This document shows positions 3,970 through 18,636 of a stretch of 25,856 nucleotides of DNA, one piece after another. The stretch comes from a virus. The translations under genes and the position numbers were made by a program. The notes beneath the pieces were generated by a model. That model ran no database searches and was not told the origin of the DNA. It saw nothing but the letters and a program-made list of their open reading frames with translations. Location: positions 1-25,856 of the IMG/VR virus record IMGVR_UViG_3300039191_000253. One strand, given 5' to 3'. Numbering within the stretch: the stretch's first letter is position 1; each line of letters starts with the position of its first letter.

Positions 3970-6900
3970 TTAACCTTCTTCTTCTTCTGTTTCTGTTCCA
4001 GAATTATTTTGTTCAGCCCTTGCCTCTTCATCAATCTCTGGTGATGGATTAGTTGTTATACCAGCTGAGATTGCATCTCTATATTTATACCCATCTGATG
4101 GATTATCGAAATTGTTAGGGTTTACACCATTAACTATTTGATATTCATTATCAGTAGCTTCACCAGTTGTAAGATTAATACCATTCGTCTTTTTAATAAA
4201 GTCAGCTCTTTCATCATAAATCTCTGAATTAGCAAAGAAGTTAAATGATACAGCATTTTGTAATCTATTAATTGGACCTTGTAATGAGGAACCACCGATA
4301 AACTTAAATGATAAATCTACATTACAAATCATTGGTTGAACACCTACACCTTCTGGGTTTAAATCCCAAACCAATGGGTCAAATGAGAAACTAAGGTTAT
4401 CTATTACAATTTTAGTATGGTAAAAATCACCAATTCTTAAAATACAAACAGGTGCTTTACCAAATGCTAAATTTGTTGGTGTATTATCTCTATTCAATGT
4501 AGGTCCTTGTCTTGTACATTGCATTAAGAAGTTTAACCTTGCATTAAACCCTTCTGGTGTGATTGAGTGAAATGCTGGGTGGAAATATTTAACCTTCTCC
4601 CTAACTGTATTATATATGAATTTATCATTTTGCTCCAACTTTTGGAAATATGAACATTCATTGAAATATCTTTTTCTAACATCAAATGAAATATCTGAAA
4701 CAGATGGTTCTTCAATCGGTGGTGCAATATCTTGTAATCTCTCATCTAAAGTTTCATCATATCTAAATGAAATTTCAGTATATCTTGATGTTTTTTTATT
4801 ATATGAATCAATACAATTACTAAGACATTTAGCTCCAACCTCATAATTACCACTAGGTGTATCATATACAGCTCTTGGTGCGCCAGTAGCACCTTCACCT
4901 TGAACAAATTCAAACCTATCACCCCCTAATGGGTCATCATTAAGTTCAAATTGAGTTCTAAGAGTTTGAGCAACATTTTTTGCCCTATCTTCTGATAACC
5001 TTTGGTTAGCATCTGGTGCCGTGTTTTCACCATCTTGACTTGCATACCCAAAAATTTGTACCCTTGTTGCTGGTGCTTTTTCAAGTATATATTCCACTAA
5101 ATCAATAATATAATTATTACTTTTCCAACCATCATACTGTTTACCATCTAATGTAATTTTCTGACCATTTGGACAGTCACCACTAGTACAACCATTTAAA
5201 CCAAAATCGGTATTATCTTCATAGAATCTAGTTTTATAATTTTCACCCCTAATTGCCTCAGTTATATATCCAGCATCAGCAATATAACTACCAACACCTT
5301 GACCATCACCATCTTCATAATCTGTTCTAACATTAGTTTTATCATTTGGGAAATAAACCTTAAATGGTTGTGGTACTGGAGCTGGATTAGCTTCTGTTTG
5401 TGGTTTCTCTTGAGCTGTAGCAACCTCAATTTGGTCCCTTTCTGGTTGACTTAACTTTTCGCCAATAAGACCATCTAAATCCATACAACCAGCAGCAATA
5501 CTAGCAAATACTTCATCACTAGCACTCGTATCCCTTAAATCATTAACATTTGTTGGATGGTCAATAATTACTTGCCATTGTAATGTCCCACTTCTTTCAG
5601 TATTGTTGTAAGTATATATTGGTTCACCTCTACCAATGAAGTTAGTTGTATCCCAATTAACTGATGAATTATCAGTGAAATTCATACCATATGGTGGGAA
5701 CCACATAATTCTACCGCGAGTTCCAGTGATTGGGTCGCCAGGTCCTTTTTCACAATTTGGTAAAAATGAGAATGACGTATCATCACCCCATGCAAGGTTT
5801 TCAATTGAGAACATAAATCTTTTGATTTTAGTATCACCAAAATCATCAGCATTATCACCATCACCAACCTTTGGTGCAATTCTAACAAATCCATTATCAT
5901 CTAATACAGAACCTTCAACATTCTTTCTAAGTGTACTAACAGCGTTTGAATCTAAACCTCTACTCTTCTGTAAATCAAATACATTATTATATCTATCAAT
6001 TGTTGTCCATGTTCTACAGAATACATCTTTTGCATTTGGGTCTTCAAGTGCTCCAAATACTTCTGGAGCAGCAGCACTTGGTGATAATACACCAGAACCT
6101 TTAGATGCAAATCCAAATTGTACAGAAGTTTGTATTTCGTTAGCGGTCTGACTTTTAACACCATGACCAGTAACAAGTGTTCTCATTTTATTAGTATTGA
6201 ACAATGATTCGGTTTTAGATAATAAACTTTTCTTAGTGTTAAATCTAGTACCAGTTCCAAAGGCATCTTTACCAGCTTTGTTACTAGCTTTATCCGACCA
6301 ACCATATTGTGTTAATAAATCACCATCTTCATTACGACCATTAACCCCATCATTTGGGCCAATACCAAAATCTTGATTAAATCCACCATCGATTTCACCA
6401 GTAATTCTACCATATTCCCTTTCAAACTCACTTGCCTCAGCATTATCATCTGTAGTTGGGGAACTTAATAAATCTTTAATACCACCTTCACCAGTATCAA
6501 ATGCATATAATTCACCATTAGTTCCAATCTCACCATCTTCACTACGGTCATCAGATATGGTTGGTTTATATTTATTTTGACTAAGGTTATCAATTAAAGC
6601 TAAAACTTGACCTTTACCAGTATTCTGTACTTGTGCATTCGCCCTAATGGTATTCGTTACTGGGTTTTCTTTCTGGAATATCGATGAAGCATCATCAAAA
6701 TCACTAACTGGTAATTCAACTCCAGTTACCCTATTGAAAAAATCACCACCACGTCCAAGTTGACCTCTTGGAACTGTAAGTGCAAAATTTTGAACATATA
6801 AATCATTACCTTGTAATTGACTTAGTGGGTTTAGATTTATCTGACCTAAAGTTTCTTGTGCTAGACCAAATGCAGCATTATAACCAAAATGTGTTAATAA

Positions 6901-7512
6901 CTGCTCGTTTGCAATTCTACCCATTTCACTTTCCTCATTATCAACAACAGTACCTATTGTTTGAGATGCACTACCTAAGTTCACTGAATTAGCTAAAAAA
7001 TCTACAGTTCTTTCAATAAGTGACGTTCTGAATTGATAAATTCCATTGGACTTCTGAGCTGTAATGTTTGTATTAATATTTACTTTGTAAAGCTCATCAT
7101 CATCAAAATACTGATTCTTCAACATTTGCTCTCTAGCCTCATCAGCTGATTGATTAAATGGAGAAGTTGGATTCTCAGAACCAATGTTTTGTTGGTATTC
7201 AACAGGTTGAGTGCCTGGCGGCAGATTACCTATATTACCTACAGTTGCTGTAGTTATGTCAATTTCTTCATTACCATTAATAGATTTATACGGATTATAA
7301 AGTAAGTTCAAATCCCTATAAAATTCACCCTCAGATGTTATATCTGTTGAAGCTTGGACTGAATTAGGTGGTGTATCAATCTGTGCTGGTTGACCAAGAC
7401 CAACCGCTAACCCCTGTAAACCGTTATCAGTAACAGTGTCAGACAATATTAGGTTCCTATTTAATAACCAGTCCCTTAAATTTGGTGAAATATCATTAAT
7501 TCCGTTTGGCAT
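3970..7512 (-). CDS. Baseplate hub-like protein with internal OmpA-like domain
   Basis: A 1180-aa protein. The N-terminal 500 residues are Asn/Gln/Asp-rich with no recognised motif. Residues about 560-660 contain IMWFPPYGMNF, a YNNTERSGTLQWQVIIDHP stretch and related beta segments typical of phage baseplate or tube-adaptor proteins. Residues about 715-900 look like an OmpA-like peptidoglycan-binding domain: FKVYFPND, then VQIFGYASQDGE, then the signature NQRLSEDRAKNV with N at about residue 836. The C-terminal 200 residues return to a beta-rich baseplate-like module (FDPLVWDLNPEGVGVQPMI, FFANSEIYDERADF). It is the first gene after the tape measure and begins a three-gene run. I infer a hub or tail-tip role with the OmpA-like domain inserted into a structural scaffold. 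The OmpA motif is clear; the exact baseplate position is not. Confidence 0.72.
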   Translation of the reverse strand: MPNGINDISPNLRDWLLNRNLILSDTVTDNGLQGLAVGLGQPAQIDTPPNSVQASTDITSEGEFYRDLNLLYNPYKSINGNEEIDITTATVGNIGNLPPGTQPVEYQQNIGSENPTSPFNQSADEAREQMLKNQYFDDDELYKVNINTNITAQKSNGIYQFRTSLIERTVDFLANSVNLGSASQTIGTVVDNEESEMGRIANEQLLTHFGYNAAFGLAQETLGQINLNPLSQLQGNDLYVQNFALTVPRGQLGRGGDFFNRVTGVELPVSDFDDASSIFQKENPVTNTIRANAQVQNTGKGQVLALIDNLSQNKYKPTISDDRSEDGEIGTNGELYAFDTGEGGIKDLLSSPTTDDNAEASEFEREYGRITGEIDGGFNQDFGIGPNDGVNGRNEDGDLLTQYGWSDKASNKAGKDAFGTGTRFNTKKSLLSKTESLFNTNKMRTLVTGHGVKSQTANEIQTSVQFGFASKGSGVLSPSAAAPEVFGALEDPNAKDVFCRTWTTIDRYNNVFDLQKSRGLDSNAVSTLRKNVEGSVLDDNGFVRIAPKVGDGDNADDFGDTKIKRFMFSIENLAWGDDTSFSFLPNCEKGPGDPITGTRGRIMWFPPYGMNFTDNSSVNWDTTNFIGRGEPIYTYNNTERSGTLQWQVIIDHPTNVNDLRDTSASDEVFASIAAGCMDLDGLIGEKLSQPERDQIEVATAQEKPQTEANPAPVPQPFKVYFPNDKTNVRTDYEDGDGQGVGSYIADAGYITEAIRGENYKTRFYEDNTDFGLNGCTSGDCPNGQKITLDGKQYDGWKSNNYIIDLVEYILEKAPATRVQIFGYASQDGENTAPDANQRLSEDRAKNVAQTLRTQFELNDDPLGGDRFEFVQGEGATGAPRAVYDTPSGNYEVGAKCLSNCIDSYNKKTSRYTEISFRYDETLDERLQDIAPPIEEPSVSDISFDVRKRYFNECSYFQKLEQNDKFIYNTVREKVKYFHPAFHSITPEGFNARLNFLMQCTRQGPTLNRDNTPTNLAFGKAPVCILRIGDFYHTKIVIDNLSFSFDPLVWDLNPEGVGVQPMICNVDLSFKFIGGSSLQGPINRLQNAVSFNFFANSEIYDERADFIKKTNGINLTTGEATDNEYQIVNGVNPNNFDNPSDGYKYRDAISAGITTNPSPEIDEEARAEQNNSGTETEEEEG

Positions 7513-7747: not shown

Positions 7748-10336
7748 TTAAACAGGGTTTGGATTCATTTTACCACCACCAATTGCTTTTCTAACTTCTT
7801 CTTGGATTACCTTACTTAAGTCTCTCATGAATATTGGGTCACTCATATCTAAATTGGAAGTACCACCTTCACCAGTTAACTCCAACGTTCCACTTATATT
7901 AATTGGACTGAATGATATATTCATTTTACCACCACTTGATGATTTACCACTATCCATAGCTTTATCTATAGGTCCATCTTTCTTAGCTGCAACAACATCA
8001 TCAGCTGGATTAATAGCAATAGGTGCTTGACCACTTCTCATGATAACATCATCATATTTACTTATGGCACCAGTTGTATCTTTGGTGAAATATTCATCAT
8101 ATAAACCTTTACCAGCACCAGCTAAACCTCCAATTAAGGCACCAATACCTGTACCAAGACCTGGTATTATACTACCAATCATAGCACCAGTACCAGCCCA
8201 ACTAGCAGCTTTACCACCAACACCCATAGCTTTACCAGCTCCAGAATCTGGGTCATCCAATGAACCTCTCCAAGCATCAAGACCCATACCTATACCAGCA
8301 CCAGCAAGTCCACCGAGACCACCTCTAAGTAATCCTTTACCTAATCCAAGACCTCTACCAGCAATACCACCACCAGCTCTTTTAGCAGCCATATTCCTAA
8401 GACCTTTACCTATCTTAGTTTTCTTACCACCAAACATACCACCAAGACCTTTCATCATTCGTCCACCCATTCCCATACGTCTACCACGGCCTCTTCCACC
8501 ACTCATCATTCCACCACCAGCAGAAGCAACAGAATTAAAGCCCATTCCAAGTAATTTACCATTTGCAAGCCACATAGCAGCTTTACCAGCCAATATTGCA
8601 GCTCCAGTTGTTAACAATGAAGTAATTGGATTATCTGTGACGAAACTAACTAAACCTTTAACCAATGGTTTAACAAATTTACCGAAATCGATGATAGCTT
8701 CTCCAAATGAAGCACCCATTTCGAATAGTTGGTCCCCAAACCCACCCTCAGATGTCATATTATCCATAAAATCAGCCATTGGGCCCTTTAAAGCCTCAGA
8801 TAAGCCGTTTAAGACTGGTAATAGAATTGTTTTAAAGGTATTTTTAAGGTTATCCCAAGTTTCATCGAAAGTTTGTGCTTGTTTAGCCCTTTCTTTTAGA
8901 TTTTGCCTTTCATTCCTTAATTTTTCAATTTCTGTTTCTTTTAATTCATTAATATTTTTGGTTTGACCATCAATGGTTACTTGATATTGTTTACTGGTTT
9001 CATTAAATTCGGCTACAGATGCTACAAATGCTGAATTTTCATCATCTAGATTTGTCATCATCTCAATTCTTTCCAATTTAGCCGCATCTCTTGACATTTT
9101 TGCAATATCATCAGCTGCCATACCAGTAATATCAGCAATTTCTCTAATTCTATCTAATCCAGCACCAGAAATATCAAATTCTCCAGTCTCAGCATTGAAT
9201 TTAGCAAATTCTTTTGATGCATCGATGATATCATTGGTGAAACCTTCGAAATCATTCCTTGCTTTGAACATTAATTCGAATGGGTCAGCCATTTTAGCAA
9301 ACTCACCACCCATAGTTTGTAGTCTAGAAGCCATTTCAACGGCCCCTTCTGGCCTAAACACCTTATCAGCCATACTTGCTATACCATCCATGTTAACACG
9401 AACCTTAGCAGCCTCCGCTGCAAGTCTTGTCATACCCTTAACACCATCCTTGAAGTGGAATCGGTTAGCAAGTTTCATATTTTTCTTAAGATTTTCGGTA
9501 ACTTTAACTGAATTAACACCCATACTTGAGGCTAAATTCATCATTTCTTCAACCCTATCCCTTGATGCAGCAGCAGATATACCAAAGCTCTCCATATTTC
9601 CAGCCATTTCTCTTGCACCATCAGCACCAAGCATAGTACCACTTGCCATTTCAGCCATAGCTTCAAGACCTTGTTGTGATAGTTGTACACTTCTACCAAT
9701 TTGTTCAGAATAAGCACCTTGCATCTTTGCTAATTCACCAGCATTGATACCCATTTGGTTGGTAGACATTGATGCCCTTTGTATGTTGGTTCTAAATCCT
9801 TGTGCCTGGCTTGACAATACACCCATAGCCTTCTCAGACTTCTGAATTTCCTTCTGCCAATTAATAACTTCTCCCCAAGCACCATTTAAATTCCAAAAAT
9901 CTTTAGCTAATTTCTTAGTAGACCTACCAATAGATTTAAATGAAGATGCCATTAAGTTAGTTGAGTTAACAGCCTCACTCAACTCATTATTCATCAAGTT
10001 AAGCTCTTTAACTTCCGATTTTAACTCTTTCTTAAGATGTCTATGTGATTTTACTATTTGAACAAGGATTTGATATTCCTTGCTATTCATCTTCTTCCTT
10101 CTTTCAGATTCATCTGAAATACCTTTAAGAAGCTCCCTTTGTTGCTTTTTTGCATCAGTGATGGTTTTATCAGCATCAGCAATGTCTTGGCTATTTTCGG
10201 CAATAGTTCTATTGTTAATCCCAATTTGCTTTAGGATTTCATTATAGTCTTTAAGTGAGTTTGCAGCTTTCTCATTAGCAGCTGCAAGTAACTTAGCTAA
10301 CTGTTTGGGGGTTAAATTATCAAAACTATCGGCCAT
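7748..10336 (-). CDS. Tail tape measure protein
   Basis: An 862-aa protein. The N-terminal 130 residues are charged and helical, predicted coiled coil by eye (many K, E and Q in heptad-like spacing). Residues 130-520 are Ala/Met-rich helix with repeated AxxMAxM patterns. Residues about 575-740 are hydrophobic and very Gly-rich (for example GGRGRGRRMGMGGRMMKGLG and AGAGIGMGL), which suits a membrane-interacting part released during DNA injection. The C-terminus (ISFSPINISGTLEL ... SKVIQEEVRKAIGGGKM) resembles the ends of other tape measures. Position supports the call: it follows the chaperone and the 424-aa gene and precedes baseplate genes. It starts 3 nt after the stop of the 424-aa gene, so the two are coupled. 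At roughly 0.15 nm per residue it would set a tail of about 130 nm, an estimate from general knowledge. Confidence 0.88.
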   Translation of the reverse strand: MADSFDNLTPKQLAKLLAAANEKAANSLKDYNEILKQIGINNRTIAENSQDIADADKTITDAKKQQRELLKGISDESERRKKMNSKEYQILVQIVKSHRHLKKELKSEVKELNLMNNELSEAVNSTNLMASSFKSIGRSTKKLAKDFWNLNGAWGEVINWQKEIQKSEKAMGVLSSQAQGFRTNIQRASMSTNQMGINAGELAKMQGAYSEQIGRSVQLSQQGLEAMAEMASGTMLGADGAREMAGNMESFGISAAASRDRVEEMMNLASSMGVNSVKVTENLKKNMKLANRFHFKDGVKGMTRLAAEAAKVRVNMDGIASMADKVFRPEGAVEMASRLQTMGGEFAKMADPFELMFKARNDFEGFTNDIIDASKEFAKFNAETGEFDISGAGLDRIREIADITGMAADDIAKMSRDAAKLERIEMMTNLDDENSAFVASVAEFNETSKQYQVTIDGQTKNINELKETEIEKLRNERQNLKERAKQAQTFDETWDNLKNTFKTILLPVLNGLSEALKGPMADFMDNMTSEGGFGDQLFEMGASFGEAIIDFGKFVKPLVKGLVSFVTDNPITSLLTTGAAILAGKAAMWLANGKLLGMGFNSVASAGGGMMSGGRGRGRRMGMGGRMMKGLGGMFGGKKTKIGKGLRNMAAKRAGGGIAGRGLGLGKGLLRGGLGGLAGAGIGMGLDAWRGSLDDPDSGAGKAMGVGGKAASWAGTGAMIGSIIPGLGTGIGALIGGLAGAGKGLYDEYFTKDTTGAISKYDDVIMRSGQAPIAINPADDVVAAKKDGPIDKAMDSGKSSSGGKMNISFSPINISGTLELTGEGGTSNLDMSDPIFMRDLSKVIQEEVRKAIGGGKMNPNPV

Positions 10337-10339
10337 CTA

Positions 10340-11614
10340 TTACCATTTAAACTTTTTATTCTTATTATCCCTTTTCTTCTCAATTTTTATCTTTGCTCTA
10401 TCTAACTCTCTTGCACCAGGTCTATTTTGTCTAATATACTTGTGTTTAACATTAACTATTGATATATCGTCATCGTCTGTAGTTCCAACAATTTTGAACT
10501 CTACAGCATCTTTTCTATTAGATGATTTCACAATAATCTTGTTCTCACCTAAATATTTACCAACATATTCTTTACCCTTTTCAAATTGTAAATCTTTTGC
10601 AATGTCGATATCTTTACCAATATATTCAAACCAAACTTTATCACCGTATTTAAGTTCTTGTACTGGTGAGCCCATTGCTCTGAATAATCTATCAATATCA
10701 CCCTTTGGTTTAACTTTATCACCACGGAATAGTTGATTGAATAAAGTAGGATTACCTAAATATCTTTTTCTAAGTTGGGGTGATGATTTAATTATATCCC
10801 ACTTTTCTTGGTTGGATAATTCATGTGGTTTGCCAGGGTCGGCCATACCTAAATTCTCCAATCCAAATACATTTGGTATAGTTTCTTTTTTAACTTCTTC
10901 ACCCTCTTTATATTTGAATGTCAACCCAATACCTTCACCAAGTGGTTTTAATGAATCAGTACTAATGAATATTGGTCTTTTTTTAAACTTTTCATATTTA
11001 CTTGATTCAGCACCATCAACTTCAATGACTTTAGCTTTAACCATACCTTTGGTTAATTTTTCAACTTTAAGTTTAATATTAGTGATAGTATTCTTAGCCA
11101 AAGAGCCTTTATCTTTACCAGTTGTAATTACCTTACCAGTGGTTATTTCAATTACATCATCAACATCAAATTGTTTTAATTGATTTGTTAAATCATCATA
11201 TCTATCTTGTGCAAGATTCTTTTTCGCTTTTTGTTTTTTTCCTTCTGGCTCATTTCTACCAGTACTAGGTGTAACACCAGAGACAACATTTCCATTTCTT
11301 TTAACAATTATATTATAAACACCTTTAACTGTTGGTCCTTTAACGGTACCAGATGTCCTACCTTCATCGTTAGTTATGATTCTTTGGGTATGTAAATTAG
11401 AACCATCAAATGAGTTATGAGTTATTAAATAATATTGACCATCCCATTCAAATGTTACTTGGTTAGAAAACTTGTTTATAACCCTCACATCATAAACTTG
11501 ATTACCAGTTTTAACCACCAAAGTATCTCCTTTTTTAATTTGAGAAAAGGCATCTTGATATGTTGCCTCGTTAATTGGTTGCTTAAGTTTTATATGTTCA
11601 GCTCTTAATTTCAT
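10340..11614 (-). CDS. Unknown protein between tail chaperone and tape measure
   Basis: A 424-aa basic protein of unknown function. I place the start at ATG 11614; the reading frame also has an in-frame TTG directly upstream at 11617. Several stretches look like small beta-barrel modules with a GD-x-V pattern followed by strands: KKGDTLVVKTGNQVYDVRV near residue 28, a VDDVIEITTGKVI segment near 150 and KYGDKVWFEYIGKD near 325. The last 30 residues are highly basic (ARELDRAKIKIEKKRDNKNK). No signal peptide, membrane segment or catalytic motif is visible. It is tightly coupled to the tape measure (3 nt), so a tail assembly or tail completion role is plausible. The SH3-like reading of the repeats is an impression from sequence pattern, not established. 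Confidence 0.75.
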   Translation of the reverse strand: MKLRAEHIKLKQPINEATYQDAFSQIKKGDTLVVKTGNQVYDVRVINKFSNQVTFEWDGQYYLITHNSFDGSNLHTQRIITNDEGRTSGTVKGPTVKGVYNIIVKRNGNVVSGVTPSTGRNEPEGKKQKAKKNLAQDRYDDLTNQLKQFDVDDVIEITTGKVITTGKDKGSLAKNTITNIKLKVEKLTKGMVKAKVIEVDGAESSKYEKFKKRPIFISTDSLKPLGEGIGLTFKYKEGEEVKKETIPNVFGLENLGMADPGKPHELSNQEKWDIIKSSPQLRKRYLGNPTLFNQLFRGDKVKPKGDIDRLFRAMGSPVQELKYGDKVWFEYIGKDIDIAKDLQFEKGKEYVGKYLGENKIIVKSSNRKDAVEFKIVGTTDDDDISIVNVKHKYIRQNRPGARELDRAKIKIEKKRDNKNKKFKW

Positions 11615-11629
11615 CAAAGTTGTTTAGTA

Positions 11630-11649: not shown

Positions 11650-11679
11650 AAAATCCCCCATTTACTGTTGAGGGATTTT
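11650..11679 (-). terminator. Intrinsic terminator of the chaperone unit
   Basis: On the minus strand the arms AAAATCCCTCA and TGGGGGATTTT form an 11-bp stem with one T-G wobble, ending in a T5 run. The stop codon of the +1-frame chaperone extension (11662-11664) lies in the loop, so translation to the stop would cover the hairpin. The stem core is nearly the same as that of the terminator at 23462-23494. Confidence 0.75.
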
Positions 11680-11934
11680 GTTATTTTTAATTTGTGATTT
11701 TAAAGCTTCTCCAGATACGGTCCTACTTCTACTACCTTTTCCTCCAGATGAGCTGTTTTTAGCTTGCTCTTCCATCTTCTCTTTCTTCTCTTCCATTTCC
11801 TCTTTATAAGTTTGGATGTAAAACCTTCTCTCGAAAGTAGGCATCCTCATTATATCACTATAAGATATTTTTAAATGCCTCATACAGACATATATCTCTT
11901 GTAGGAATGGATATTTATAATTAGAGTTGAGGCC
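11662..11934 (-). CDS. Second-frame extension of the tail assembly chaperone (gp51-like)
   Basis: This 90-codon segment lies in the +1 frame relative to the 383-aa chaperone and is read from GGC at 11934 if ribosomes shift on the seven-T run. It encodes GLNSNYKYPFLQEIYV, then MRHLKISYSDIMRMPTFERR with a FYIQTYKEEMEEKKEK helix and a Ser/Gly/Lys-rich tail. The 'S-x-x-D-I-M-x-M-P-x-x-E-R-R-x-Y-I' pattern resembles the downstream half of tail assembly chaperones and small gp51-type hub assembly proteins. There is no ATG near its 5' end: the frame's upstream start is a TTG at 12000, and the first ATG is at 11883, which would drop the conserved-looking N-terminal part. I therefore favour production as a fusion of about 469 residues, with an internal start at 11883 as the alternative. 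Confidence 0.62.
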   Translation of the reverse strand, partial: GLNSNYKYPFLQEIYVCMRHLKISYSDIMRMPTFERRFYIQTYKEEMEEKKEKMEEQAKNSSSGGKGSRSRTVSGEALKSQIKNNKIPQQ

Positions 11935-13072
11935 AAAAAAAGTCGAGGTTAAAGGGAAGAAAGGGATTAATAGACTCACCTCCAGGAGTCTCAATCTCAA
12001 GCTTCATATCTACTCCACTCTCAATATCATCAATATTTTTACGTAATGCTCTTGAATCACCCGCTCTCATTGTTTGAACGAAACTCCCAATAAATTCTCT
12101 ATCTCTATTTCCATTAACTTCAACTATTTGTTTAGCTAATGTGTAAGTTACCGTATCGGCATGTTCAGCACCTAATGTCTCTTTTATTTTCTCAATATGT
12201 TCTTCAATTTCATCCACCTCACCAACTGTAAGTAATTTATACTTAATCGGTGTTTTAGTTACTGGTAAAGTAAAATCAAATAAACCTTCTTTATCTGGCT
12301 CAGCACCTAATGGTTTTGATTTAATAGTTGATAAATCAACAATATGTTCAAATGGTTCATATGTTGTTGGGTCATAAACTTGAATAGGATATTCATGTCC
12401 ATAAGCTGTAGCTCTAAGCCAAATCATAATAGCATTTCTATCACCAACATGTAAGTTTTCATACCTTAACTCTGGCTCAAGAATTTTTCTATTTAATAAA
12501 ACCTCAAGAAACTCACCACTCTCCATTAAGTTTGGATTAGATAATATATTCTCATCCGCAGCTGTTAAATAAGCCACCTTAATCGATTTCTTTTTAGTTT
12601 TGTATATCTTACCCTCAGACGGTAATGGTATAACGTCAAATGCGGCATCATATTGAGGCTCACTAATGGCTTTTAATTTATCTACTTCTTGTGGTTGGTT
12701 TTGTTGATTACCACCAGACGGACTATCCCCACTTGGTGGAGTAGGTGGTGTTGGTGGAGTAGGTGGTTGTTGATTTGGTGGCCCTTGGTTTGGCGGCTGT
12801 TGACTCATCATTTCTGCTCTTTGCTCATCTAACTTCCTAGCTTTATCAATTTGCTCTTGCATCAACCTATTTCGTTCAGCAATTTGCTCTTGAGTTTTTC
12901 TAGCCATTTCCTCAGCAGCCTTTTGTTCAGCATCACTTGTTTCTGGCTTTAAATTGTTTTCCTCAGCAAATTGTTGAGCGATTTCTTCACCCGTTTTATT
13001 TGCTTCTTCCATCATATTTTTATTTGGGAAAACATTTGGCCTTTGTTGTGGCATTTCATTTTCTTCTGACAT
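11921..13072 (-). CDS. Tail assembly chaperone, gp26-like (T4 baseplate family)
   Basis: A 383-aa protein. Residues about 1-130 are a Glu/Gln-rich helical region (AEQKAAEEMARKTQEQ) followed by a Pro-rich linker with PTPPTPPTPP. From about residue 133 the pattern DVIPLPSEGKIYKTKKKSI, then AYLTAADENILSNPNLM and NAIMIWLRATAYGHEYPI resembles the T4 gp26-like baseplate/tail chaperone family. T4 gp26 is only about 208 aa, so the N-terminal 130 residues are an extension. The frame ends four codons after a seven-T run at 11935-11941, and the adjoining frame stays open for 90 codons, the classic layout of frameshifted tail chaperones located before the tape measure. The family assignment is from remembered sequence pattern and would need a profile search; the gene position fits well. 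Confidence 0.68.
   Translation of the reverse strand: MSEENEMPQQRPNVFPNKNMMEEANKTGEEIAQQFAEENNLKPETSDAEQKAAEEMARKTQEQIAERNRLMQEQIDKARKLDEQRAEMMSQQPPNQGPPNQQPPTPPTPPTPPSGDSPSGGNQQNQPQEVDKLKAISEPQYDAAFDVIPLPSEGKIYKTKKKSIKVAYLTAADENILSNPNLMESGEFLEVLLNRKILEPELRYENLHVGDRNAIMIWLRATAYGHEYPIQVYDPTTYEPFEHIVDLSTIKSKPLGAEPDKEGLFDFTLPVTKTPIKYKLLTVGEVDEIEEHIEKIKETLGAEHADTVTYTLAKQIVEVNGNRDREFIGSFVQTMRAGDSRALRKNIDDIESGVDMKLEIETPGGESINPFLPFNLDFFWPQL
11933..11944 (-). other. Candidate programmed frameshift site (GAC TTT TTT TGG)
   Basis: In frame 0 the codons are GAC TTT TTT TGG CCT CAA CTC TAA. Seven consecutive T let a Phe tRNA re-pair perfectly in either direction. A +1 slip gives TTT TTT then GGC (protein LDFFGL); a -2 slip gives one extra Phe (LDFFFGL). 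Both lead into the 90-codon open frame. A perfect GGAGGTGA lies 34 nt upstream (11976-11983), too far for a normal stimulatory Shine-Dalgarno position. Confidence 0.6.
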
Positions 13073-13490: not shown

Positions 13491-13979
13491 TTAGAATACT
13501 AATATAGCTCTATCAAATCTCAAGTCAGCTGTAATGTCTGCGATTGAATCATCATCAAAGGCAAGGTCACCAAACTGAACGTTTGTAAGCATTGTACCTT
13601 GTAGTACCCATTTTTCGATTACTACACCTGTTGGGTCTAGCATTTCTACTTCAATGTCTTTCTTATAACCAGCGGCATAACCTTGTCTACCAGTTACGGA
13701 TTCTGAGTGAAGTCTCACCCATTCCATGATAGCTTGTGCAGCTGATGGACCTATAGGGTCCCTAAATGTGACAGTTATCGGCTCCCAAGTAAATCTACCT
13801 ATCACCCAAGTTGATGTGTTAAGAAATGGAATCTCAACCTCATTTTGCGTAATTGAAGGTCTAGAAGCACTTTGTAACCACCATTCTTGAATACCCAAGT
13901 CAGATGGGAATCTTATTAACCAACGATTCTTTTTCTTTGGTTCATAAGGTACAGGCATTTTCATTAACAAATCGGCCAT
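13491..13979 (-). CDS. Tail tube protein, gp19-like
   Basis: A 162-aa protein, almost the same length as T4 gp19 (163 aa). It opens with MADLLMKMPVPYEPKKKNRW and has the expected beta-rich tube pattern: WWLQSASRPSI, FTWEPITVTFRDPIGPSA, a helix AAQAIMEWVRLHSESVTGR, and the ending ADITADLRFDRAILVF. Its rings stack to form the inner tube through which DNA passes. It has its own terminator, a candidate promoter box 34 nt upstream, and lies one gene downstream of the sheath, as tube genes usually do. A separate transcript fits the high copy number needed. The assignment from sequence pattern, length and neighbours is strong. Confidence 0.92.
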   Translation of the reverse strand: MADLLMKMPVPYEPKKKNRWLIRFPSDLGIQEWWLQSASRPSITQNEVEIPFLNTSTWVIGRFTWEPITVTFRDPIGPSAAQAIMEWVRLHSESVTGRQGYAAGYKKDIEVEMLDPTGVVIEKWVLQGTMLTNVQFGDLAFDDDSIADITADLRFDRAILVF

Positions 13980-14463: not shown

Positions 14464-17316
14464 TTATATGTCATCGAAAGATGCACCAGTGTTCATGATG
14501 TTGAACTCTACGCAGATGAACTCAAGAGCCCTTGTAGGCTTAATGAATATTCTACCACAAAGTTCATTTCTATCAATCGCTTCTGGGTCATCATCTAGAA
14601 CCACTCTAAAGTCAGTTAAACCTCTTTCAGTTCTGATGTTATCCAAGATTGGATTAACCAAACTTAGGAATTGATTTCTAACGACTTCATCATTTTGTTC
14701 GAATAAAAGTCTAATAGATACTGCTGAAATAAGTTTTCTAGCTTGAAGTAATAATCTTCTAACGTTAATTCTGTTAAGAGCTGTTTCAGCTTCTTGTAAC
14801 GTCTTGTTACCCCAAACCTTAATACCCTCAGATGCAAATGTTGCAATTGGATTAATTCTACCCTCATACAATTCATCTCTTTCTTCAAGTGTTAACTTTT
14901 TCCTTGCTTTAATAGCATCAACATCACCCCTTTGAACACCCGCTGCCGCGAACCATGGGAATGCAATATTATCAGTAAGTGCAATGTTTCTAACAACATC
15001 TCTTGTTGGTGGTAACCAAATCAATTGATTGTTTTCAGCATCATTCACTTGTACCCAAGGCCAGTATGTTGCAGTATAGTTACTGTCATACATATCCTCG
15101 ATATTAAGAACTGCATCTTCTGTTGTAAGTATTTCACCACCACTGTCAACATCTGGTAACGTTGCAATGTATAATGAATCACATCTCTCAGTCTCAATCA
15201 TTTCGATTGATTCTTCAATTAGGTTAGTATTATCAACCATATCAATACCTAGTGTAGCAAATACGTTGATGTTTGTTGCCTCTGGGTTAGCAAATGTTCT
15301 AAGACCCTCGAAGTAAGCATAGTAATCAGATGTGATACCAATCTCACCATTTGAAAGTGCCTTATTCTCAAATACTCCAGAAGTTAAACCTACAGAACCT
15401 TTATTTCCATTGATTAAGTAATTATCTGTGTTCGTTCTTCTTGTTCTATACACGTCCCATCCATCGAAACCACCATATGGTGTAAATGTGAACTTACGTG
15501 CGTATGTTTTCTCATAGTCAGTTCCAGCAAGGTCGAAATCATTTTTGAATTCAGCATTACCTGTTTGGAATATAAATGTTGGATTATATGTACCACCAGT
15601 ACTATTAACCACAACTTCAACATTATCAATTGTAACCGCAGAAGCTTCAATATCCATGTGGAATCCGTCTGTAAGACCTGTCCACATAATTAATGATGAA
15701 CTATCTGGTTTACCTTTGTAGTCAAAGAAATCTTGGTCAATACCAACAATATCTGAAAGACCTAAGTATGCTTTTCTCTTCTTCTCGAATGTTGTATATT
15801 CTGTTTTATAAGTTAAGCATGGTGGAAGTACATTTGTATTTCCGTTCTCAGTGTAATCTCTCAATGGGAATCCTGTAAATCCAGCTGGGAATGCATCTGA
15901 ACCATCAGACTCTTCATCAACTTCAACTAATACATAGTTAGACCTAGATGAATATTCACCATCCAATGTACCAATTCTTCTTCCGATAAATCTATCAGAT
16001 GTTGGGTCCATTGTACATTTAGTGAATTTCTCAAGAACTACTTTATTTGCATCAGTATCCGCATATGACCTAATCTCAACATCAAATAACTTATCGTCTG
16101 GTTTAATGTTTACGATTGAAATCTTAAATTCTTTATTTGCAGAATTACCATCTGAAATTGTCCAGAATCTGAATAATCTCAATACCTTGTTACCTCTAAC
16201 TTCCGAAACGATGTAAGGAGTTACGGCTGGTTGGTATTCTTCTTTATAATCATCAAATGCGTTTCCATATTTAATAATATCTAAGTTAATACCTCTAATC
16301 TTATCATCTGTGATTAAATCATCAAATAAATCTTGATATATTTCTTCAACAAATAATGCAGTTGTATTATCTTGTGCTGTTCTACCAAGTACTCTTGGAA
16401 GGTAGCTTTTATTAGTTCTATCCATTGATACTTTATAATTGAAAGCACCTTGGAAGTATGAAGTACCAGTTAATTGGAATGTTGATAATGGACTACTTTC
16501 AGCAGTTGTTGCTGTAGATGAAATACCTACTGGTGTTGTGTTACCTGTACAATCAAATACAAGGAATTCATCACCATCGTATTTACCTCTTGACCTAAGC
16601 AATGCAACAAGCTTATTATCTACATCACTATAAGATTGACCACTGTATGTGATTGAAATACCACTAGTTACACCAGTTGTGTTACCACTAATATTAGTAC
16701 CAGTAGAAATAACCTCAAGTGAACCACTAAATCCAGTAAATAGAGATGTAGTCTCATCTAATTTATCATAGAATGGACCAAACTCAGCTGTATCACCAGA
16801 AGATGCTGTACCTAAGAAATCTAGGTCAAGCGCACCAGTACCATAGAAGAAATTCGTTGGTACATCTGATGTTGAAATGTTAGTTACTGTTCCAGCAGTT
16901 GTTGCTGTATATGTGATGTAAGTACCACTATATGTTGTAGTTGTTGTTACTGCACTAGTTGATGGGTCTAAAGCACCATCGATTGTTATACCCCAAGCAT
17001 TACCAGCATCATATCCAGAGAATCCTAAGACCCTTGTTACGAATAATTGGTTAGATTGAGACAAATATGATTTTGAGATGTATGGAAGTTCATACATTGG
17101 GTACCCAGTGTCCTTTACCTTTTTTGGGTTTAATCCACCGAAGAATGATTTGAATTCATCGTAATTGGTAACAAATATTGGTTGGAAAGCTGGACCTTTT
17201 ACAGTCTCACCGACTAAACCAAGAGTCGTTACACCAACGTTTCTTGTTACGAAGGATAAACCTCTTTCGGATGTGTAAACACCTGGGGATACAAATACTC
17301 TGTTTTGAGAAGCCAT
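14464..17316 (-). CDS. Contractile tail sheath protein
   Basis: A 950-aa protein. The N-terminus SQNRVFVSPGVYTSERGLSF and the following VGVTTLGLVGETVKGPAF are typical of phage sheaths. The C-terminal domain (LLLQARKLISAVSIRLLFEQ ... GRIFIKPTRALEFICVEF) is the conserved part that holds neighbouring subunits. T4 gp18 has 659 residues, so this protein carries an extra 300 or so, probably the Ser/Thr/Gly-rich stretch at about 115-330 facing outward. The sheath contracts around the tube to drive it through the envelope. It has a terminator downstream and a candidate promoter box 43 nt upstream; the leader is A-rich without a Shine-Dalgarno. The identification is firm; the domain limits are by eye. 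Confidence 0.94.
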   Translation of the reverse strand: MASQNRVFVSPGVYTSERGLSFVTRNVGVTTLGLVGETVKGPAFQPIFVTNYDEFKSFFGGLNPKKVKDTGYPMYELPYISKSYLSQSNQLFVTRVLGFSGYDAGNAWGITIDGALDPSTSAVTTTTTYSGTYITYTATTAGTVTNISTSDVPTNFFYGTGALDLDFLGTASSGDTAEFGPFYDKLDETTSLFTGFSGSLEVISTGTNISGNTTGVTSGISITYSGQSYSDVDNKLVALLRSRGKYDGDEFLVFDCTGNTTPVGISSTATTAESSPLSTFQLTGTSYFQGAFNYKVSMDRTNKSYLPRVLGRTAQDNTTALFVEEIYQDLFDDLITDDKIRGINLDIIKYGNAFDDYKEEYQPAVTPYIVSEVRGNKVLRLFRFWTISDGNSANKEFKISIVNIKPDDKLFDVEIRSYADTDANKVVLEKFTKCTMDPTSDRFIGRRIGTLDGEYSSRSNYVLVEVDEESDGSDAFPAGFTGFPLRDYTENGNTNVLPPCLTYKTEYTTFEKKRKAYLGLSDIVGIDQDFFDYKGKPDSSSLIMWTGLTDGFHMDIEASAVTIDNVEVVVNSTGGTYNPTFIFQTGNAEFKNDFDLAGTDYEKTYARKFTFTPYGGFDGWDVYRTRRTNTDNYLINGNKGSVGLTSGVFENKALSNGEIGITSDYYAYFEGLRTFANPEATNINVFATLGIDMVDNTNLIEESIEMIETERCDSLYIATLPDVDSGGEILTTEDAVLNIEDMYDSNYTATYWPWVQVNDAENNQLIWLPPTRDVVRNIALTDNIAFPWFAAAGVQRGDVDAIKARKKLTLEERDELYEGRINPIATFASEGIKVWGNKTLQEAETALNRINVRRLLLQARKLISAVSIRLLFEQNDEVVRNQFLSLVNPILDNIRTERGLTDFRVVLDDDPEAIDRNELCGRIFIKPTRALEFICVEFNIMNTGASFDDI

Positions 17317-17467: not shown

Positions 17468-17629
17468 ATGAAGATTAAACGTACTAAAAACCTTAAAATC
17501 ACTCCAGACACTCACAAATTATTAAAAGAATATTGTGAAGAGAATGGACTAAAGATGTTTGCATTTGTTGAAAAACTAATAAAGGACCAATGTAAAAAAC
17601 CTAAAAATATCTACGGTGAAGAAGATTAA
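17468..17629 (+). CDS. Small ribbon-helix-helix DNA-binding protein
   Basis: A 53-aa basic protein: MKIKRTKNLKITPDTHKLLK, then EYCEENGLKMFAFVEKLIKD and a Lys-rich tail ending GEED. The order is a short strand (TKNLKIT), helix (PDTHKLLKEYCEENG), turn and second helix (MFAFVEKLIKDQ), which is the layout of Arc/MetJ-type ribbon-helix-helix repressors. It is the only plus-strand gene I can support. It is divergent from the sheath gene and converges on the phospholipase gene, with the two stop codons overlapping by 4 nt (TTAA at 17626-17629). Two inverted repeats lie directly upstream. A role in controlling its own promoter, late tail genes or both is likely but inferred. The fold assignment is by pattern and is fairly confident. 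Confidence 0.72.
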   Translation: MKIKRTKNLKITPDTHKLLKEYCEENGLKMFAFVEKLIKDQCKKPKNIYGEED

Positions 17630-18636
17630 GATTTCGTCATATCTTTAATCAATTTAGCTTTTCTACCTTTTACTAATTTGTATGATTTGAACTTCTTATT
17701 CTTAGCATATTCAAATCCCTCATCCCACCATTCTGACATTACATCCTTATCAAATATCAAGCTATTATTTGTAAGATTTCTAGGTGTGTAATAAAAATTA
17801 AGTTTAACCTCATTATCAGAAGTAATTGCTTTCAACTTACCTAATTGTATATCATCTTTACTTAATTCGGAATGCATCATATCAATCTCTTTCATAATAC
17901 CATGAAAAACATTTCTAATATATTCTGCCTCAAACTTAGGGTTCTCTTCTTTCAATACAATTATATCAATATCAGTAGCTCCCCTATTAATTGCTTCTTG
18001 GATTGGTACCGTTTCAAGGATACCACCATCGATATACTGAAAATTATTCTTATATACAGCACTCATGAATGGGTAAGCACTAGATGATGCCTGAGTCCAA
18101 TCACAAAAATCCTCATATCCCCAATCATTTGATGATTTATATTCAACTTCCCTTAAAGTCGCGTTAACAACGCAAACAACTAATTCTGTTTTAAGTTCTT
18201 CTCTAACTCGATTATATTCTTTTTCACTCATGAACCTTCTAATAAGTTTAGATAAGTTACTTGAATCACCAAATGATATTGAACCATCAAACTTCTTAAG
18301 TTTAAACCAAGGGAACCCATCTTTCTTAATAAACCTAAATCTAGGGGTAATATTTAAAAATATTTTCCACCAGTTCAATTCCATTTTAACTTTACCCTTT
18401 TGATTTTGCTTAACTTTGAATGGATTTCGTTTCCATATATCCTCATTCTTTACAGTAGTGTAAGCTTCTTTTAGCTTTTCTATGTTACCTGTTGAGGCTA
18501 ATAATTGCACTAGTGTACCTGTTGAAGATGCGACATACATGTCGTACTTCTTATTTTTAACTGTTTTTAAATACTCTACAATTCCTCCAGCAAATGCGCC
18601 TTTAGAACCACCTCCAGATATCACTAATGCTTTCAT
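17626..18636 (-). CDS. Patatin-like phospholipase
   Basis: A 336-aa protein with the patatin active-site pieces in order: the oxyanion loop SGGGSKG (residues 7-13), the nucleophile site ASSTG with Ser38, and the DGG motif with Asp203. Patatin-like enzymes are Ser-Asp dyad lipid acyl hydrolases. The usual GxSxG has Ala at its first position here, a tolerated variation in some family members. There is no signal peptide or membrane segment, so the protein is cytoplasmic or packed into the virion. It follows the fibre genes at 13-nt spacing and ends against the plus-strand regulator. It may attack host membrane lipids at entry or lysis; the sequence does not show which. The enzyme assignment is strong, the biological role open. 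Confidence 0.86.
   Translation of the reverse strand: MKALVISGGGSKGAFAGGIVEYLKTVKNKKYDMYVASSTGTLVQLLASTGNIEKLKEAYTTVKNEDIWKRNPFKVKQNQKGKVKMELNWWKIFLNITPRFRFIKKDGFPWFKLKKFDGSISFGDSSNLSKLIRRFMSEKEYNRVREELKTELVVCVVNATLREVEYKSSNDWGYEDFCDWTQASSSAYPFMSAVYKNNFQYIDGGILETVPIQEAINRGATDIDIIVLKEENPKFEAEYIRNVFHGIMKEIDMMHSELSKDDIQLGKLKAITSDNEVKLNFYYTPRNLTNNSLIFDKDVMSEWWDEGFEYAKNKKFKSYKLVKGRKAKLIKDMTKS

Follow-up and report, generated by a model that had tools for sequence, protein, structure and literature searches.

A single gene in the window, a 25,856-nucleotide stretch of viral DNA (IMG/VR record IMGVR_UViG_3300039191_000253), very probably gives rise to both a short and a long tail assembly chaperone by P-site +1 slippage of the ribosome at a YUU_U site, a reading that we base on comparison of sequences. 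The layout of the gene, its conservation, the variants of the site and the homology to known chaperones were all observed directly. With rather less confidence, though still as more likely than not, we propose that a dedicated +1 signal, UUU-YUU_U followed by UGG or UAC as the A-site codon, is shared by a large group of contractile-tailed phages, most of them uncultured. A U ahead of the signal would be selected against because it would divert the ribosome to -1, and within this gene family the direction would have switched to -1 on two or more occasions, always where a U precedes the run. The features of the locus are as follows.

11921..13072, minus strand: short form, gp26-like tail assembly chaperone (TAC-N), 383 aa; phrog_150, PF12322 (the latter below the curated cut-off for this protein itself)
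11935..11941, minus strand: shift site TTT TTT T (GG); TTY YTT T in 243 non-redundant loci
11921..11935, minus strand: zero-frame tail past the site, TGG CCT CAA CTC TAA; stop 5-12 codons past the first TTT in 243 loci
11662..11934, minus strand: gp51-like C-domain plus stop in the +1 frame, 90 aa; phrog_634; +1 in 246 of 252 loci; expected solely as a chaperone extension
11662..13072, minus strand: long form (TAC-NC) as predicted from the layout, 469 aa after a +1 shift
13491..13979, minus strand: tail tube protein, gp19-like, upstream neighbour; phrog_4542, 3.5e-29
14464..17316, minus strand: tail sheath, upstream neighbour; phrog_23, 3.9e-55
7748..10336, minus strand: probable tape measure, 862 aa, downstream, judged by position, length and composition; no family match
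10340-11617, minus strand: 425-aa protein without an assigned family, flanked by chaperone and probable tape measure

The genes run in the order sheath, tube, chaperone, 425-aa gene and probable tape measure, and the chaperone thus sits between tail tube and tape measure. The gp26-like protein carries a Pro-rich, low-complexity N-terminal extension and ends in N L D F F W P Q L before its stop. At the site, the first TTT occupies 11941-11939, the second TTT 11938-11936 and the seventh T 11935; the +1 frame reads GGC CTC AAC from 11934 and stays free of stops for 90 codons. A first-pass annotation of the window had described a gp26-like gene ending four codons after GAC TTT TTT TGG, followed by a gp51-like frame open for 90 codons with no good start of its own, and this description holds: the gene spans 13072-11921, the second frame ends at the stop at 11664-11662 and matches phrog_634, and the start listed for it is a TTG that lies before the site, within the gp26 frame, with no ATG until well inside the C-domain. 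The predicted fusion would comprise 379 + 90 = 469 aa, and its tryptic junction peptide would be LEIETPGGESINPFLPFNLDFFGLNSNYK if the shift is +1, with FFF replacing FF if it is -2.

Other genes of the window include a patatin-like phospholipase inside the tail gene cluster (17626-18636, minus strand; PF01734, 3.9e-23) and, adjoining the baseplate genes, an 1180-aa protein (3970-7512, minus strand) with an OmpA-like, peptidoglycan-binding-type domain that scores slightly below cut-off (PF00691, 9.4e-06). A DNA-level search with the window against named phages returned no match.

We assigned the chaperone by profile comparison. The window gp26-like protein matches phrog_150 (baseplate hub) at 4.4e-05, and the Pfam family T4_baseplate (PF12322) matches 30 of 37 aligned N-domain members, with a best value of 1.8e-16; the window protein itself scores 17.2 bits against PF12322, below the curated cut-off of 24.5. 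Judged from these matches, the N-domain belongs to the T4 gp26 type of tail assembly chaperone. An AlphaFold2 model of the N-domain core (pLDDT 92) was aligned to 638 PDB chains, of which the best two, on a second look, were YqbN (3klu, Z 5.2, 80 residues aligned, rmsd 3.2) and the HK97 chaperone (2ob9, Z 4.8, 86 residues, rmsd 4.2). With Z below 8, the resemblance of the modelled fold to YqbN and to the HK97 tail assembly chaperone is suggestive and not proof.

The C-terminal part of the window locus matches phrog_634 (baseplate hub assembly catalyst) at 2.6e-05 over positions 70-119 of the 121-position profile (2.3e-05 in another comparison), a family that only 2 of 27 C-domain members match on their own. 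T4 gp51 aligns to the gp26 profile over its residues 15-200 (hhalign, 99.2%), and its C-terminus gives a weak match to the C-domain described here (hhalign, P 0.004). Because residues 15-200 match the gp26 profile, gp26 and gp51 of T4 are, on this comparison, the short form and the long (N plus C) form respectively, and only the C-domain of the latter corresponds to the gp51-like part of the window locus. The suggestion that gp26-like and gp51-like proteins are two halves of one frameshifted gene is supported for this lineage, where a single gene has the +1 layout, and does not simply carry over to T4, whose gp51 itself contains both domains. Vladimirov, Gautam and Davidson reportedly identified T4 gp26 as TAC-N and gp51 as TAC-NC, the tail assembly chaperones of T4-like phages, in 2022.

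Searches with the gp26-like protein yielded 154 relatives, 80 of which were kept, and in this first set the gp51-like frame was +1 relative to gp26 wherever the junction was complete. We widened the search using profiles whose lead members were Flavobacterium phage immuto, Bacillus phage SP-15 and a megaphage, added named phages, and removed near-copies to obtain 252 non-redundant loci. The C-domain lay in the +1 frame in 246 of them, in the -1 frame in 2, and went undetected in 4. These 246 loci have the arrangement that defines a G/GT-type gene, an open and conserved second frame that follows a site near the zero-frame stop and, in 92 of 243 loci, has no start codon in reach; the lambda-type arrangement, with the C-domain in the -1 frame, is not what they contain. 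The earlier reading of the locus as a frameshifted tail chaperone whose shift must be +1 or -2, not the -1 of lambda, is thereby supported, and the direction now leans clearly to +1.

Several further observations bear on the site. Similarity of the gp51-like frame starts right there, the -1 frame stays open for at most 17 codons past it (measured in 120 loci), and the zero-frame stop falls 5-12 codons past the first TTT in 243/243 loci, mostly 6 or 8. An in-frame run of seven Ts occurs elsewhere in the same genes at 1 in 58,185 codon positions, the site excluded, so the presence of TTY YTT T in 243 non-redundant loci is far beyond chance. Searching with the C-domain alone retrieved no relatives from viral contigs or from the phage collection, because the domain is too short and diverged. 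Among isolated phages, the annotations of immuto, LIS04 and SP-15 list genes for tube, hub and tape measure in order, and in immuto the annotated tape measure comes after the same chaperone locus.

The extension of the chaperone is left blank or partly covered by a short hypothetical gene in immuto, LIS04, SP-15 and GXN1; unannotated extensions lie at L084 4634-4858, L085 3206-3425, L086 3158-3359 and L185 3248-3518. The long chaperone of several isolated phages is consequently absent from databases. One locus, L271 (2001-2720), has a C-domain detected in neither shifted frame and a zero-frame stop that overlaps an ATG (TAATG), so that a separate start may have replaced the shift in this branch.

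The site itself varies in an informative way. TTT TTT TGG is found in 179 loci, 177 of which continue exactly as TTT TTT TGG CCT, and TTT TTT TAC CCT in 36. A further 20 loci carry TTT CTT T (TTT CTT TGG CCT in 17, TTT CTT TAC CCT in 3), and three carry TTC TTT T (TTC TTT TGG CCT in 2, TTC TTT TAC CCT in 1), both groups keeping both frames; the remaining variants occur in one or two loci each. Named phages sample this range: Microcystis phage Mel-JY01 and Rhodothermus phage RM378 have TTT TTT TGG, Flavobacterium phage immuto TTT CTT TGG, Streptococcus phage GXN1 TTC TTT CGT and Bacillus phage SP-15 TTT TTT CAC. As read from these variants, the conserved core is YTT (a UUU or CUU codon) followed by T, not the seven-T run, and YTT then T is what +1 re-pairing to UUU requires. 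The first-pass annotation had named the seven-T run as the site and had asked of relatives whether the run and the second open frame are conserved; the second frame is, and the run is present in most loci without being strictly kept. Loss of the run with both frames retained, which had been taken to count against a shift, does occur literally, but only the run is lost and the +1-slippery core stays.

Some loci count against a slip at YUU_U, as a different slip codon would be needed in LR756508 (TTT CTA TTC), LIS04 (TTT TTT AGT) and L268 (TTC TTC TTC CCC CAG). L268 has the +1 layout without TTT at the site (at about 2720), and its slip may instead occur at CCC_C, where the codon specifies proline, as it does in phage PSA.

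Bases around the core also appear constrained. Codon usage predicts a T before the seven-T run in 108.5 loci and we found one (1/218 of the T7 sites), and it predicts TTC as the first site codon in 49.8 loci and we found five; both expectations ignore shared ancestry and are read as a direction, not an exact probability. An earlier set of 120 loci had shown no preceding T in 88 T7 sites. AAT does precede TTT CTT sites (L114-L116), and we read the missing T before T7 as selection against a -1 slip, T TTT TTT being a -1 heptamer. The sole +1-layout locus with T before the seven-T run, L200 (AAT TTT TTT TGG GTT), counts against the main reading; it should also shift -1.

Past the core, the zero-frame codon at the majority sites is UGG or UAC. 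UGG accounts for 96 of 53,568 codons in these genes, and its rarity makes a slow A-site plausible. RNAalifold found no conserved RNA structure downstream of the site in either clade. A 5-bp upstream pairing, GGAGG/CUUCC, appeared in the first clade only (alifold -3.6) and probably just follows conserved codons.

The main competitor to a +1 slip is a -2 ribosomal shift, in which the P-site tRNA on the second codon would move back two bases and insert one extra Phe, the direction taken by phage Mu. Base pairing would also permit such a slip at TTT TTT T and TTT CTT T, which make up most of the sites, as the -2 codon is UUU or UUC, and a -2 slip would likewise account for a first codon that is almost always TTT. 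The TTC variants argue against it: at TTC TTT T (L217, L279, L283) and TTC TTT CG (GXN1, L198) the -2 codon would be UCU, a mismatch for tRNA-Phe at the middle base, whereas +1 pairs fully, and the layout is unchanged in all five. The -2 codon would mispair in LR756508 too. We consider a -2 shift improbable.

Slippage of RNA polymerase on the seven-T run, yielding a mixture of mRNAs of which some are one base shorter, would fit a homopolymer that is invariant in most relatives. However, in the 20 TTT CTT T and three TTC TTT T loci the longest run is four Ts and the frame arrangement is the same, and eight-T runs are avoided, opposite to what selection for slippage would produce. Since variants without the seven-T run keep both frames, we rejected this explanation as very unlikely.

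Another alternative makes the gp51-like frame a gene in its own right, translated from a start codon and ribosome binding site independent of the gp26-like gene. Precedents are T4, where genes 26 and 51 are separate, and some distant relatives that start the frame anew, with TAATG at the junction in LR756511 and Pseudomonas phage Cygsa01. In the clade studied here, by contrast, we scanned the +1 frame of 243 loci from the preceding stop codon to the third codon beyond the site: ATG, GTG and TTG are all absent in 92, and ATG is absent in 208. The +1 frame becomes conserved only from the shift site onward. For this clade only, we rejected an independent start, which we rate about as unlikely as transcriptional slippage. 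Homopolymer runs are prone to sequencing or assembly error that could split one gene, but 246/252 non-redundant contigs, which come from numerous samples, have the same layout, as do complete genomes of phage isolates; this excludes such an error in practice and leaves it a negligible chance.

We therefore return to the +1 slip, of which we infer both the event itself and its exact tRNA step, as well as its rate. Most ribosomes would read the gp26-like frame to its stop and release the short tail assembly chaperone. In a fraction, tRNA-Phe (or tRNA-Leu in the CUU variants) would occupy the second site codon in the P-site while the A-site holds the seldom-used UGG or UAC codon; the ribosome would move one base forward, the P-site tRNA would re-pair with UUU, and reading would resume at GGC CUN into the C-domain to give the long chaperone. 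A weak E-site UUU duplex on the first codon, nearly always TTT and not TTC, would favour the forward slip, and the scarcity of TTC as first codon can be read in this way, as proposed for RF2 and PA-X (PMC3498833). The codon preceding the run would have to end in a base other than T, since T TTT TTT is a -1 heptamer. UUU_U and CUU_U are known +1 slippery codons in the context of release factor 2 (PMC10885494). By analogy to lambda G/GT, the short and long forms may coat the tape measure protein and bring in subunits of the tail tube.

Two loci of the family have the C-domain in the -1 frame, both with a T before the run: L194 (GAT TTT TTT TTC) and L205 (AAT TTC TTC). In a maximum-likelihood tree of the N-domain, L194 is sister to the window's clade and L205 falls inside the wider +1 clade. 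The L194 locus (4001-4714) contains a nine-T run, and its contig, binned in a Candidatus Wolfebacteria genome, is probably from a phage. The more distant Agrobacterium phage Atu_ph07, Pseudomonas phage PA5oct and Vibrio phage Bakedbeans carry T TTT TTC with a -1 frame. Like the window, all five of these -1 relatives pair a gp26-like gene with a C-domain and have the site in the same place; unlike the window, their C-domain is in the -1 frame and the site is T TTT TTC, T TTT TTT or T TTC TTC. If the proposed dedicated +1 signal is real, the family offers a natural series on what sets frameshift direction: sites with UUU_U, CUU_U and UUU_C, with and without a preceding U, in +1 and -1 relatives, would amount to an evolutionary experiment on slippage direction.

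Tail chaperone frameshifts are widespread; +1 shifts are much rarer, with few well-supported cases in phages. T4-type phages reportedly ceased to be an exception in 2022, when gp26/gp51 were recognized; they had long been given as one (PMC5009743). Chaperone frameshifts and the gp26/gp51 assignment are thus already known. In the literature covered, which did not include Vladimirov 2022, we found no earlier report of a +1 shift in T4-like chaperones, nor of this lineage's +1 direction, the rule for its site or the switches from +1 to -1. Our results would make the T4-type chaperone pair a single +1-shifted gene across hundreds of environmental phages.

T4 gp26/gp51 belong to the same protein families as the window chaperone (N-domain T4_baseplate/phrog_150, C-domain phrog_634). 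A paper that cites Vladimirov 2022 (PMC12846349) describes -1 poly-T signals for T4-like chaperones, in contrast to the +1 of the window lineage. In T4 itself the short and long forms are separate, divergent genes, whereas the window has one shifted gene.

The -1 frameshift of lambda gpG/gpGT was reportedly described by Xu, Hendrix and Duda. Both lambda proteins bind the tape measure and recruit tube subunits (PMC5009743). Lambda and, on our reading, the window are alike in that one gene ahead of the tape measure encodes both a short and a long chaperone, with a stop few codons past the site. They differ in that lambda shifts -1 on a heptamer and the window would shift +1 at YUU_U, and the sequences are unrelated.

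Closer parallels for the slip come from other +1 sites. Influenza A PA-X has been shown to shift +1 at UCC_UUU_CGU, where P-site UUU re-pairs to UUC, and weak E-site duplexes have been tied to more +1 shifting (PMC3498833). PA-X shares with the family a P-site UUU, the +1 direction and no obligatory downstream structure, and the GXN1 (TTC TTT CGT) and HSTV-2 (TCC TTT CGC) sequences are nearly the PA-X site; the virus and host are unrelated, and the majority sites here are UUU_UGG after UUU. The release factor 2 gene prfB (CUU_UGA) shares its CUU_U core with 20 non-redundant loci, including immuto. The RF2-type combination of CUU_UGA with a Shine-Dalgarno-like element three bases upstream is not what these loci contain: in the contexts listed, we found neither an A-site stop nor a Shine-Dalgarno-like element.

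Among tail chaperones, that of halovirus HSTV-2 is annotated in GenBank as a joined reading frame, and its shift is +1 (PMC5009743). HSTV-2 resembles the window in having a +1 tail chaperone before the tape measure, with UUU_C at the likely site as we deduce it; it is an archaeal virus, and the likeness is one of layout, direction and likely site. Listeria phage PSA shifts +1 at CCC_UGA and phage Mu shifts -2, and both reach the same reading frame as the window. PSA does so in capsid and tail shaft genes and on proline codons, and Mu by going in the -2 direction.
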